A stretch of DNA of 21,008 nt, from the IMG/VR virus record IMGVR_UViG_3300020187_000267, positions 1 through 21,008 of that record; one strand, given 5' to 3'. The notes beneath the pieces are model-generated. The model had not been told where the DNA came from. It did not search any database and saw nothing but the letters and a program-made list of their open reading frames with translations. The DNA is from a virus. The translations under genes were made by a program, and so were the position numbers. This document shows positions 8,316 through 11,611 of the stretch, piece after piece. Each line of letters opens with the position of its first letter. The stretch's first letter is position 1.

Positions 8316-8711
8316 ATGAGTAATGACCTATTTAAAGACTTAAAGGAAATGCACGCTAAGTATGGCGTCCATGAACGTATTAAGACAATGTCGAAGGATC
8401 AATTATCCAACTTCATGATGTTTCGATACAACTGCTTGGAGGAGGAAATGGAGGAACTAAACTATGCTCTTAAAACACGTGACAAAACTGAAATCGTTGA
8501 TGCACTGATTGACCTCACTGTCTTTGCCATTGGAACCTTAGATGCTTTTCTAATTGACGGTCAGTTAGCCTGGGACGAAGTATTAAAGGCAAACATGAAT
8601 AAGACCCCAGGCATTAAACCGGAACGACCCAATCAGTTTGGCTTTCCCGACCTAATTAAGCCAAGCGATTGGATTGCTCCTACTCACAAGAATAACACCG
8701 GATTACTATGA
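8316..8711 (+). CDS. MazG-like all-alpha NTP pyrophosphohydrolase
   Basis: Predicted to hydrolyse a (deoxy)nucleoside triphosphate to monophosphate and pyrophosphate. The metal-binding pattern is clear: a first helix with repeated acids (LEEEMEEL, residues 41-48), then EIVDALIDLTVFAIGT with Glu59, Asp62 and Asp66, and the tail AWDEVLKANMNK typical of phage members. The length of 131 aa suits a single-domain dimer. T4 gp56 (dCTPase/dUTPase) does this kind of work in a phage with modified cytosine, and the genes downstream make a similar role likely here: removing dCTP, or making dCMP for the hydroxymethylase-like enzyme. Substrate choice cannot be read from the sequence. It overlaps the next gene by ATGA. 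Confidence 0.8.
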   Translation: MSNDLFKDLKEMHAKYGVHERIKTMSKDQLSNFMMFRYNCLEEEMEELNYALKTRDKTEIVDALIDLTVFAIGTLDAFLIDGQLAWDEVLKANMNKTPGIKPERPNQFGFPDLIKPSDWIAPTHKNNTGLL

Positions 8712-9067
8712 GCCCAGAAGAAGTACTAGAAAAAGCGATGCAAGTGCGCATTGCTAAGTCCCAAGACTACCAAAGCTTGTGCTCTACAGTAACACAAGCG
8801 CAATACTATCCTCGCGGGATCGAAACGATCTACGATATAATGTGGGGAAAGATGCTAAGGATTAAATCCATAATGGAAGCTACCAAAGCTACCAACGGAG
8901 TTAGCCATCCACAGTATGAATCCATACAAGATTCTGCATTGGATTTAATTAATTATGCATCTTTCCTATCTGCCTACATGGACCACGATATCGAAGGCCA
9001 AAGTATCTACCAAGATGTATTTAATCGAAACCTAGAAGGTCCTTCTATTCTATGCGAAAGCGAGTAA
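8708..9067 (+). CDS. DUF1599 / nucleotide-modification-associated (Nmad1)-like protein
   Basis: The pattern fits the DUF1599 family, named nucleotide-modification-associated domain 1 because it recurs in phage base-modification cassettes: a KSQDY block (residues 17-21), a central helix MLRIKSIMEA, and a late helix with DSALDLINYASFLSAYM. The acids in the last helix resemble the MazG-like all-alpha NTP-PPase arrangement, so it may act on a nucleotide, but I know of no proven reaction. At 119 aa it is a single domain. It overlaps the MazG-like gene by four bases and the hydroxymethylase-like gene by 16, which places it firmly in the cassette. Confidence 0.6.
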   Translation: MSPEEVLEKAMQVRIAKSQDYQSLCSTVTQAQYYPRGIETIYDIMWGKMLRIKSIMEATKATNGVSHPQYESIQDSALDLINYASFLSAYMDHDIEGQSIYQDVFNRNLEGPSILCESE

Positions 9068-9807
9068 GCTTAAAAGGTGCATTGTGGATGCTAAGAAAGC
9101 ATTTGCATGATCATGGTGATGCTGTGACAACCTCAACTTGGCAATCAATGACCAAGCCTCCAGAGTTTCTAGAGGTTCTGCATGCCCATTTTGTGGCACA
9201 AATGGAGCAGACGGAAGCAAAGGCAAGCGATGCGGTGGGTGCTAATCAACCATGGGCAAAGGTTCATTTCGGAGAACGGGTTGGTGGGAAACCACTTAAC
9301 CCGCCTCCTTCGCATTCGATGTGGAACAAGGACACCGAGCTACATCTACTTGCAGATGGAGCATTCTCCCATAGTTACCCAGAGAGAATGTGGTGCGATC
9401 GTCACATGTCCGGCATTAGGTTTAAGTTTGGCAACTTATCAGATGCAGTGCAGTTACTTAAGAAAGACCATACCACTCGACAGTGCTATGTTCCAATGTG
9501 GTTCCCGGAAGATATATCAGCAGCTAACCTAGGCGAGCGAGTACCTTGCTCCTTTGGTTGGCATTTTTTGTATCGGAATGGAAAGCTCCATTGCTCGTAC
9601 CACATGAGAGCATGTGACGCAGTTAGACACTTGCACAATGATTTGTATTTTGCAAACTGCTTAGCGATATGGATGAACGAAGCATGTGGGTTGGATGCAG
9701 AAATTGGAGATTTACACTTCACCTCTACATCCCTACATTGCTTTTTAAATGAGAAGTATTCAATCAATAAACTAATAAGAAAAGAAAAATGTGTGGATTC
9801 GTTATAA
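9052..9807 (+). CDS. Deoxycytidylate hydroxymethylase-like (thymidylate synthase fold)
   Basis: Predicted to add a one-carbon group from methylene-tetrahydrofolate to C5 of dCMP. The fold marks align without gaps to E. coli ThyA: TRQCYVPMW with Arg143, VPCSFG with catalytic Cys166, GKLHCSYHMRACD, then HND with Asp197, and TSTSLHCF. Thymidylate synthase has Asn177 where this protein has Asp197, exactly 31 residues after the catalytic Cys. T4 gp42 has Asp179, 31 after Cys148, and shares the NVGSLH-like ending (here STSLH) and similar length (246 versus 251 aa). From T4 and engineered thymidylate synthases, Asp here favours cytosine over uracil. Methyl versus hydroxymethyl product is not decided by these residues. 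The gene overlaps both neighbours by about 16-19 bases. Confidence 0.75.
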   Translation: MRKRVSLKGALWMLRKHLHDHGDAVTTSTWQSMTKPPEFLEVLHAHFVAQMEQTEAKASDAVGANQPWAKVHFGERVGGKPLNPPPSHSMWNKDTELHLLADGAFSHSYPERMWCDRHMSGIRFKFGNLSDAVQLLKKDHTTRQCYVPMWFPEDISAANLGERVPCSFGWHFLYRNGKLHCSYHMRACDAVRHLHNDLYFANCLAIWMNEACGLDAEIGDLHFTSTSLHCFLNEKYSINKLIRKEKCVDSL

Positions 9808-11105
9808 CAGAAGACAAAAAAAATATAGACCTATACATGTCTATGATTTCTCACAGGGGATTAGATGGATACCAATCCACCTCCACTGTTGGTAAGTTTG
9901 GACTTGCCCATTGTGCATTACCGTTTGTTACTTTAGACAAAAAGATTGCTACCCAACCGGTCAACGGTAGGTCAGTCTTCGTCGGTGAGATATTTAACTT
10001 CTCCCAACTAACAAATAGAGGCTTACCTACTGACGCTCACTTTATGGATCATGTTTTCCATAAAGAGCCAGGCCTACTTAAGAACTCTCACTTATGGGAT
10101 GGGTTTTGGTCTTACGGTACTGTTATTAAGAACAAGCTAATCTTAGTTGCTGACTACCTTAGCCAAAAGCCAATCTACTATCGAACAGATATGAAAGCTG
10201 CTGCTAGTGAGATTACTCCGCTTTTGGCAATGAAGCACTCGAAGCCAGACGAAGTGTTTCTTTCTAACGTTCGTAAATGGGGCTATTCTCCAGATGGTCG
10301 AACACCTTGGGAAAACATTAAGCAACTCGAAGCTGGATGCATGTATGTCAATGGTAAGATAAAGAGGTACTTTAATTGGGACCACGTTCAAACTGGCGAT
10401 TTGTTCCAAATGATGGAATCTGCTGTTGCCTCTCGATTGCAAGGTCAACATGAGGTTGCTTTGCTGCTATCCGGTGGCTTAGACTCTTCCATTGTCTACG
10501 GTTTGGCCAAGAAAGTAATAGATACGATTACCGTTATCCATGTCGAGAACGAAGAAGAGGAATGGGCAAAGCTAGTTCACAACTACCAAGGCGCACAAGA
10601 TCCATTAGAATCTATTTCTATTAATAAGGTAACTGACCAAGAAGCATTAGCTGCACACCAAACACCTGTAGACCTTGGCTCAGTAAAGCCACAGTTAGCA
10701 ATGGCCAAGCGAATTAAAGAGCTTGGACTACATTGTGTACTAACTGGAGACGGTGCAGACGAACTATTCGGAGGATACCGTCGGGCAAGCACCTACGATA
10801 GCCAACAAAGTGACATCTTTAGCGAACTACCTTACTACCATTGCCCACGCTTAGATCGGACAATGATGAAGCACACCATAGAGCTAAGATCCCCATTCAT
10901 GCGGTCAGATATCGTTAAGTATGCACTAAACATACCATACTCGGAACGTAATGGGACCAAGAAGGTGCTAATGGATACGTTCGAATCTATTGTTCCGCAT
11001 GAAGTACTACACCGCGACAAGCGTGCTCTTAAGACCAAAGAGATCTACGAACAACCACTTACACAACGACTACACAACGATTCAATATGGAAAATGATGA
11101 ATTAA
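9789..11105 (+). CDS. Asparagine-synthetase-like class II amidotransferase with altered glutaminase site
   Basis: Two-domain AsnB-family enzyme. The N-terminal class II glutaminase domain begins MCGF, so Cys2 becomes the catalytic N-terminal residue and fixes the start. HRGLD (22-26) and Asp82 match AsnB, but the Arg49 position is Ala43 (GLAHCALP) and the oxyanion-hole Asn74 position is Val65 (VGEIFN). The C-terminal ATP-pyrophosphatase domain keeps the PP-loop SGGLDS (228-233), TGDGADELFGGY (319-330) and LRSPFMRSDIVKYAL. Such enzymes activate a carboxylate as an adenylate and attack it with ammonia or another amine. It is shorter than AsnB (438 versus about 554 aa). It overlaps the hydroxymethylase-like and deaminase genes by 19 bases each. 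Either a host-metabolism gene or a base-tailoring enzyme; context favours the latter. Confidence 0.8.
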   Translation: MCGFVITEDKKNIDLYMSMISHRGLDGYQSTSTVGKFGLAHCALPFVTLDKKIATQPVNGRSVFVGEIFNFSQLTNRGLPTDAHFMDHVFHKEPGLLKNSHLWDGFWSYGTVIKNKLILVADYLSQKPIYYRTDMKAAASEITPLLAMKHSKPDEVFLSNVRKWGYSPDGRTPWENIKQLEAGCMYVNGKIKRYFNWDHVQTGDLFQMMESAVASRLQGQHEVALLLSGGLDSSIVYGLAKKVIDTITVIHVENEEEEWAKLVHNYQGAQDPLESISINKVTDQEALAAHQTPVDLGSVKPQLAMAKRIKELGLHCVLTGDGADELFGGYRRASTYDSQQSDIFSELPYYHCPRLDRTMMKHTIELRSPFMRSDIVKYALNIPYSERNGTKKVLMDTFESIVPHEVLHRDKRALKTKEIYEQPLTQRLHNDSIWKMMN

Positions 11106-11611
11106 ACAAGTGGCACGAACGCTACTTAGGGTTATGTGACTCCATTTCATCGTGGTCGAAAGATCCATCTAGTCAAATTGGATGTGTAATCGTTGGTCGC
11201 AATGGTCAAATCTTATCACAAGGCTACAATGGATTTGCACGCGGGATTAAAGATACGATTGAAAGATACGATGTAAGAAGCCTAAAGTACCGATTAGTGG
11301 TCCATGCAGAGGCAAATGCTATCTACAATGCATCTAGGATTGGTGTTTCCCTAGAAGGATCTACTATGTACGTTAAAGGACTACCGGTTTGTAACGAATG
11401 CGCTAAAGCAGTGATCCAATCGGGCATTTCTACCCTTATCTGCTCATTTGATCACGTTAAACCACAATGGATAGAGTCCTGTGGGAATGCAATCGACATG
11501 CTAGAAGAAGCTGGTGTGTCTTACTACCACTTGGGCCCTCTCCCTAGCAAGCTGAGCAAGCTGAGCAAGCTGAGCATAGGTCTGTTATCACGGGAATATA
11601 GAGATGTATAA
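11087..11611 (+). CDS. Deoxycytidylate (dCMP) deaminase
   Basis: Converts dCMP to dUMP. The zinc site is complete: His73 and catalytic Glu75 in VVHAEANAI, and Cys102 and Cys105 in PVCNECA. Family blocks before it (SKDPSSQIGCVIVGRNGQILSQGYNG) and after it (WIESCGNAIDMLEEAGVSY) also fit. The start overlaps the AsnB-like gene by 19 bases. The C-terminus is odd: LPSKLSKLSKLSIG repeats Ser-Lys-Leu because the DNA there (11545-11577) is a 9-bp iteron array forming one arm of a large inverted repeat. The tail is probably tolerated rather than functional. In this cassette it competes with the hydroxymethylase-like enzyme for dCMP, or supplies dUMP for thymidine synthesis elsewhere. Confidence 0.85.
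   Translation: MENDELNKWHERYLGLCDSISSWSKDPSSQIGCVIVGRNGQILSQGYNGFARGIKDTIERYDVRSLKYRLVVHAEANAIYNASRIGVSLEGSTMYVKGLPVCNECAKAVIQSGISTLICSFDHVKPQWIESCGNAIDMLEEAGVSYYHLGPLPSKLSKLSKLSIGLLSREYRDV

Follow-up and report, generated by a model that had tools for sequence, protein, structure and literature searches.

The AsnB-like gene and its cassette

The window, by which is meant the whole stretch of DNA analysed (21,008 nucleotides, from a 21 kb viral record of IMG/VR), carries the following cassette of genes, all read in the same direction:

8316..8711, + strand: MazG/PRA-PH-like nucleotide pyrophosphohydrolase, a candidate dCTPase (PF01503, 35.4 bits, cut-off 21.3; phrog_671)
8708..9067, + strand: Nmad1/DUF1599-like small protein (PF07659, 20.5 bits, E 6e-4, below the curated cut-off of 25)
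9052..9807, + strand: TS-fold protein, dCMP-hydroxymethylase- or dCMP-hydroxylase-like, 251 aa (PF00303, 36.7 bits, cut-off 24.3)
9789..11105, + strand: AsnB-like two-domain protein, 438 aa, ATG start, open ORF
11087..11611, + strand: dCMP deaminase (PF00383, 70.1 bits, cut-off 25; phrog_174)

As the preliminary description of this DNA had reported, the AsnB-like ORF overlaps the TS-fold ORF at its 5' end and the deaminase ORF at its 3' end, by 19 bases in each case. Homologues of the small Nmad1-like protein are found in 49 of the clustered relatives' loci. The AsnB-like protein itself divides into two domains:

about residues 1-195: N-terminal Ntn/class-II glutaminase-like domain, bearing C2, A43, V65, G66, E67, N70 and D82
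C-terminal: PP-loop ATP pyrophosphatase domain, with SGGLDSS at 228-234, TGDGADELFGGY at 319-330 and the family motif YDSQxSD at 336-342

With a class-II amidotransferase domain followed by a PP-loop ATPase in which SGGxDS is present, the protein falls within the AsnB-fold superfamily. Pfam finds Asn_synthase (PF00733) at 128.8 bits (cut-off 21), and GATase_7 at 13.8 bits, under its cut-off of 25, which is consistent with divergence of the glutaminase domain; the asparagine synthetase equivalog TIGR01536 scores 169.4 bits and misses its curated cut-off of 267.1, and NCBIfam gives weak matches to lasso cyclases. The best PDB match of an AlphaFold2 model (pLDDT 91.3, pTM 0.91) is E. coli AsnB (1ct9; Z 35.8 over 401 residues at 2.8 A, spanning the whole length), other matches being TsnB9 (Z 34.8), human ASNS (31.6), beta-lactam synthetase (30.2) and carbapenam synthetase (26.5). 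The likeness to E. coli AsnB comprises the two-domain fold, Cys2, Asp82 and the SGGLDSS and GxGxDE motifs. However, Ala43 and Val65 take the places of Arg49 and Asn74 in the glutamine pocket, the C-terminus is shorter, the gene sits in a phage operon, and the synthetase domain bears YDSQxSD, a motif found in both branches of the clade described below and not in AsnB. Glu348 of the E. coli enzyme corresponds to Asp321, and Asp also stands at this position in most of the bacterial relatives aligned. TsnB9 and the beta-lactam and carbapenam synthetases are structural matches in which the AsnB fold has been turned to other substrates or nucleophiles, as it has in the lasso cyclases. To our knowledge beta-lactam synthetase and CarA make no use of a glutaminase Cys, whereas the clade keeps the catalytic Cys.

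PP-loop enzymes can also activate a ring carbonyl, as TilS does on cytosine and GuaA on xanthine, and GMP synthases do occur among the structural relatives of the ATP domain (Z about 10.9). The AsnB-like enzyme might likewise adenylate an oxygen of a pyrimidine ring, with an amine then displacing AMP. This chemistry is judged improbable, however, as over the whole protein it is AsnB that matches, at more than three times that Z, and as the dCMP deaminase of the same operon would reverse an amination at C4.

Linkage to nucleotide genes across viral lineages

A scan of viral contigs with the AsnB-like protein returned at least 453 relatives, and the top 80 among them (45-52% identity, plus one at 95%) were used; a scan with the TS-like protein gave 45 loci, in which the AsnB-like gene is present wherever the contig continues, and a second set came from a scan with a more distant clade member. 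The clade that results has no fewer than 105 distinct proteins, every one of them encoded on a viral contig. Among cultured phages (INPHARED, August 2025) no clade member was found, the best matches there being generic AsnB-like proteins at 22-28% identity. A possible host relative, the one close hit in a bacterial genome, on a contig labelled as a Myxococcaceae MAG (L124, RPRB01000006.1), was rejected, being 100% identical to the viral contig IMGVR_UViG_3300009168_000004; as both are 75,335 bases long, a phage contig has likely been binned into the MAG.

The preliminary description had placed the gene in a base-modification context, and the neighbourhoods of its homologues agree; the outcome that it had named as refuting, homologues lying for the most part apart from nucleotide genes, is not what is seen. 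Where at least 3 kb is available on both sides, a TS-like gene lies within 5 kb in 60 of 61 members, a deaminase is near the AsnB-like gene in 56 and a MazG-like gene in 45, counts that are slightly biased towards TS, since about nine loci, in branch 1, were reached by the TS scan only; most loci were reached by AsnB searches. A control set of 79 generic bacterial AsnB loci yielded a single weak TS match (L200, 23.6 bits) and neither a deaminase nor a MazG-like gene.

In a tree of 58 rows the 47 viral members group together (support 100/100), a long branch separating them from bacterial AsnB and from the AsnB-like proteins of phages TurkishDelight and Motura; the window protein lies at the base of branch 1 (support 100/98). 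Branch 1 has the order TS-AsnB-deaminase, and branch 2 either AsnB-C5-MTase-like-TS-MazG-deaminase or TS-kinase-AsnB-MazG-deaminase. In branch 2, 17 loci have a P-loop (dNMP-kinase-like) gene, which often immediately precedes AsnB and hints at action on nucleotides before replication. Many members of branch 1 share a T4-like core, with a DNA polymerase upstream and UvsX and a gp41-like helicase downstream (all three named by eye). The T4 order is 43-imm-42-b-gt-(segA)-uvsX-40-41, and in the T4-like members the gp42-like gene and uvsX flank the AsnB-like gene, which thus occupies the slot of the T4 beta-glucosyltransferase. The same succession of cytosine-type TS-fold enzyme, decorating enzyme and uvsX is thus shared, although T4 has beta-gt where the clade has the AsnB-like protein and a dCMP deaminase. 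The window phage is not T4-like and yet has the same cassette; as gene order also varies by lineage, the linkage is not the mere inheritance of one genome.

Such linkage could also arise if the enzyme modified a protein or peptide, for example a replication protein, in the manner of a lasso cyclase or a QueC-family enzyme. QueC-family PP-loop enzymes of anti-phage systems have been proposed to join a base to protein (PMC13329287), a proposal that, with the weak lasso cyclase matches, speaks for such a role. However, no conserved small peptide gene adjoins AsnB across lineages, and this explanation appears very remote.

Several further genes recur around the cassette. The C5-cytosine-MTase-like protein adjoining AsnB in branch 2 (L207-L223, L228, L230, L240, L264) has HP(E/D)CG where a Pro-Cys motif is usual, in 19 of 19 copies; it was rejected as a CmoX, having HP(E/D)C and not SPPC, and may act on a base already substituted at C5. 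A mini protein of the uracil-DNA-glycosylase superfamily, about 115 aa long, occurs in L037 (1813-2169) and 19 other loci, several times beside the deaminase, and KDO-pathway-like genes (KdsA/KdsB-like by eye) lie upstream of the cassette in L055, L056, L058, L070, L092 and L097.

The glutaminase pocket

The residues that the preliminary description had singled out, Cys2 and Asp82 as kept along with the ATP-pyrophosphatase domain, and Ala43 and Val65 as substitutes for the Arg and Asn of AsnB, are confirmed by alignment. This alignment comprised the window protein, E. coli AsnB and 79 bacterial AsnB relatives (77 rows readable); the match to 1ct9 was found independently of it. All 77 readable bacterial rows have Arg at the Ala43 column, Asn at the Val65 column and Asp at the Asp82 column. 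Of 75 family members, 46 have Ser and 29 Ala at residue 43 and none has Arg; V65 is present in 74, and G66, E67, N70 and D82 are present in every one, as are SGG(L/I)DS and GDGADE; Cys2 is found in all 71 that can be read there, as in the window, and in the wider clade its single exception is a Ser in L258. A comparison with the 95% identical L002 gives a dN/dS of 0.07 for residues 24-438, and of 0.066 when only the glutaminase-domain part is counted, so that the N-terminal domain is not decaying. Given this low dN/dS and the conservation of the residues, the gene and its altered pocket are real and selected, and not the product of sequencing error or chance.

The two substitutions differ in their spread. 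Val65 occurs in nearly all members of both branches. Most of branch 2 retains Arg43, which is gone from branch 1 and from L227 and L229 next to it, and a group of three members combines Trp43 with Asn65. On this distribution the loss of the oxyanion Asn is general, and that of the Arg probably came later, since Val65 is in both branches and Arg43 is lost only in branch 1 and its nearest relatives. The preliminary description had gone further and proposed that glutamine is dropped, as in lasso cyclases and beta-lactam synthetase. That step is unproven, because the domain is under purifying selection, Cys2 and Asp82 hardly vary and the Arg persists in the sister branch; the residues point to a glutaminase domain that is remodelled rather than shown to be dead.

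The same pocket bears on whether the gene is metabolic, an ordinary glutamine-dependent asparagine synthetase that boosts the amino-acid or nitrogen supply of the host. The AsnB fold and the intact ATP domain would suit such an enzyme. However, the score for the asparagine synthetase equivalog lies far under its cut-off, the glutamine pocket is without its Arg and Asn, and the strict linkage to TS and dCMP deaminase would be unexpected, so that we regard a metabolic role as very improbable.

Possible chemistry on a 5-modified cytosine

The TS-like partner is of the cytosine type, having both the catalytic Cys and an Asp at the position of Asn177 of TS. Cys166 occupies the nucleophile position and is invariant in the family members aligned; Asp197 aligns with the Asp of the RND motif of T4 gp42 (Asp179) and is likewise Asp in all of them. 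Work cited in a passage of PMC8670742 has it that Asp at this position switches the preference of TS to dCMP. The family profile scores best against the phage dCMP hydroxylase AfhB (1.8e-7), next against MilA (3.9e-6) and, weakly, against the T4 dCMP hydroxymethylase gp42 (0.0038), and by structure TS, MilA and AfhB are tied near Z 18. The product may be 5-hydroxymethyl- or 5-hydroxy-dCMP, modifications of both types being found in phages (PMC13390438). In the actinophages KimJongPhill and Muddy a phrog_13667 protein, of unknown family and by eye like a second TS-fold paralogue, stands directly before the TS-like gene (L205 4883-5944; L206 5030-5923).

In the literature on AsnB with hydroxymethylcytosine or TS in phages, one paper proved directly relevant. 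CmoY, an AsnB homologue of Synechococcus phage S-B43 described in 2025, ligates glycine to 5-carboxymethylcytosine in phage DNA, and it is proposed to adenylate the base-borne carboxylate before the amide is formed (PMC12783734). The preliminary description had supposed that a tailoring step on a base would be new for the family; with CmoY acting on phage DNA (PMC12783734), a role of this kind has a precedent, and what is distinct is the clade itself. The two are alike in being phage PP-loop, AMP-forming AsnB homologues that adjoin an enzyme modifying cytosine at C5. However, CmoY has 271 aa, is without the N-terminal domain and is 23% identical to the clade protein over the core, and its neighbours are CmoA and CmoX in place of a TS-fold dCMP enzyme. 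Of the 2,251 AMP-forming ligases on CmoX contigs, one cluster has a glutaminase domain (PMC12783734), and this second cluster (A0A7T0Q3R0) shares the domain make-up of the clade.

The present data allow a model in which the AsnB-like gene encodes an enzyme that tailors 5-modified cytosine in phage DNA, consuming ATP, releasing AMP and probably forming an amide, a function to which we give an even chance. Judged from sequence, the foundation of the model is the intact ATP domain, the altered pocket, the near-invariant Cys2 and Asp82, the cytosine-type TS and the linkage in unrelated phage lineages. The MazG-like enzyme would convert dCTP to dCMP, with dCMP deaminase balancing dCMP against dUMP, and the TS-fold enzyme, its Asp selecting cytosine, would yield 5-hydroxymethyl-dCMP or possibly 5-hydroxy-dCMP. 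The intact PP-loop domain would then adenylate a carboxylate, perhaps that of the carboxylate-bearing adduct supposed in the preliminary description, and form an amide bond, leaving an amide-linked group on the cytosine, with ammonia or a small amine passing through, or binding in, the remodelled N-terminal domain. We infer the substrate (a modified cytosine, as nucleotide or in DNA), the amide bond and the identity of the donor from this arrangement. Of the tailoring interpretation in the preliminary description, the base-modification context thus stands, and amide formation accords with both the family and the example of CmoY; the novelty of the role and the dropping of glutamine do not. A fuller version, in which the clade installs an undescribed amide-type cytosine hypermodification on a TS-made handle, using a nitrogen donor other than glutamine or handled unusually and an Ntn domain that is remodelled and still catalytic, is less probable and is offered tentatively.

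The weak point of the amide model is the missing source of the carboxylate, as hydroxymethyl- and hydroxycytosine carry none, no carboxylate-adding gene is conserved in the cassette and no carboxylate-making gene was found in the window. Two candidate sources were considered and rejected. CmoA was not found in 36 family records or the window, records that may be fragments, although it was found in the positive control S-B43, and a C5-MTase of CmoX type was not found in the window or in 17 branch-1 records, which may likewise be fragments; in branch 2 the C5-MTase-like gene is present without CmoA. A UGDH-like gene, which might turn an alcohol into an acid, was rejected as a general source, being confined to 26 clustered loci, with many copies lacking the catalytic Cys motif. 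These are truncated UDP-glucose-dehydrogenase-like proteins following the deaminase in 26 branch-1 loci (e.g. L097 9484-10326, L101 9617-10462), some keeping that motif and others having lost it.

An alternate scenario dispenses with a carboxylate on the base, which would itself be the nucleophile: a free carboxylic or amino acid would be adenylated and its acyl group moved to the hydroxyl of hydroxymethylcytosine or 5-hydroxycytosine, or to N4. This accords with a TS product that offers a hydroxyl and an amine and no carboxylate, with the intact PP-loop domain, with the family motif that sets the synthetase pocket apart from that of AsnB and, in the T4-like members, with a gene placed in the slot of a hydroxyl-decorating enzyme. 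However, an N-terminal domain with conserved Cys2 and Asp82 would then be superfluous, and we know of no case in which an AsnB-family enzyme acylates a hydroxyl; on balance we consider such acyl transfer unlikely.

The amide model may also be set beside the cassette of the 5-hydroxymethylcytosine carbamoyltransferase of uncultured phages, whose neighbours are PF00303, PF01503 and PF00383/PF14437 (PMC8670742). There too a tailoring enzyme is paired with a cytosine-type TS among the same neighbour domains, although that enzyme is of another fold. A carbamoyltransferase was not found in the window. One (PF16861) lies away from the cassette in four of the 17 branch-1 records (L039, L070, L094, L097), so that mutual exclusion of the two genes was rejected. 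In the T4-like relatives that carry one, the carbamoyltransferase could be the enzyme decorating hydroxymethylcytosine, and the AsnB-like enzyme may not be the sole decorating enzyme, since these four records encode both.

Many of the uncultured phages in this large clade are T4-like, and its members probably have a cytosine modification that has yet to be described. If the amide model is true, amide-forming tailoring of phage DNA evolved on handles made by TS as well as on those made with Cx-SAM. The Ala/Ser43-Val65-Asp82-Cys2 pocket would offer a natural test of a change of nitrogen source in class-II amidotransferase domains, and the short gene set of TS-like and AsnB-like genes is amenable to testing.

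Two AsnB-like genes outside the clade lie in other modification cassettes. That of Achromobacter phage Motura (L003 8001-9281), whose product retains both the Arg and the Asn of AsnB, belongs to a 7-deazaguanine cassette, in which queC and a tRNA-guanine-transglycosylase-like gene flank it; a scan with it matched Motura alone, so that this link is not generalisable. Gp124 of Streptomyces phage TurkishDelight (L272 5968-7368) looks like the CmoX-linked ligases with a glutaminase domain, keeping the Arg and Asn and being without YDSQxSD; its gene has a methyltransferase gene on each side and ParB genes upstream, surroundings that resemble a CmoX/CmoA cassette.
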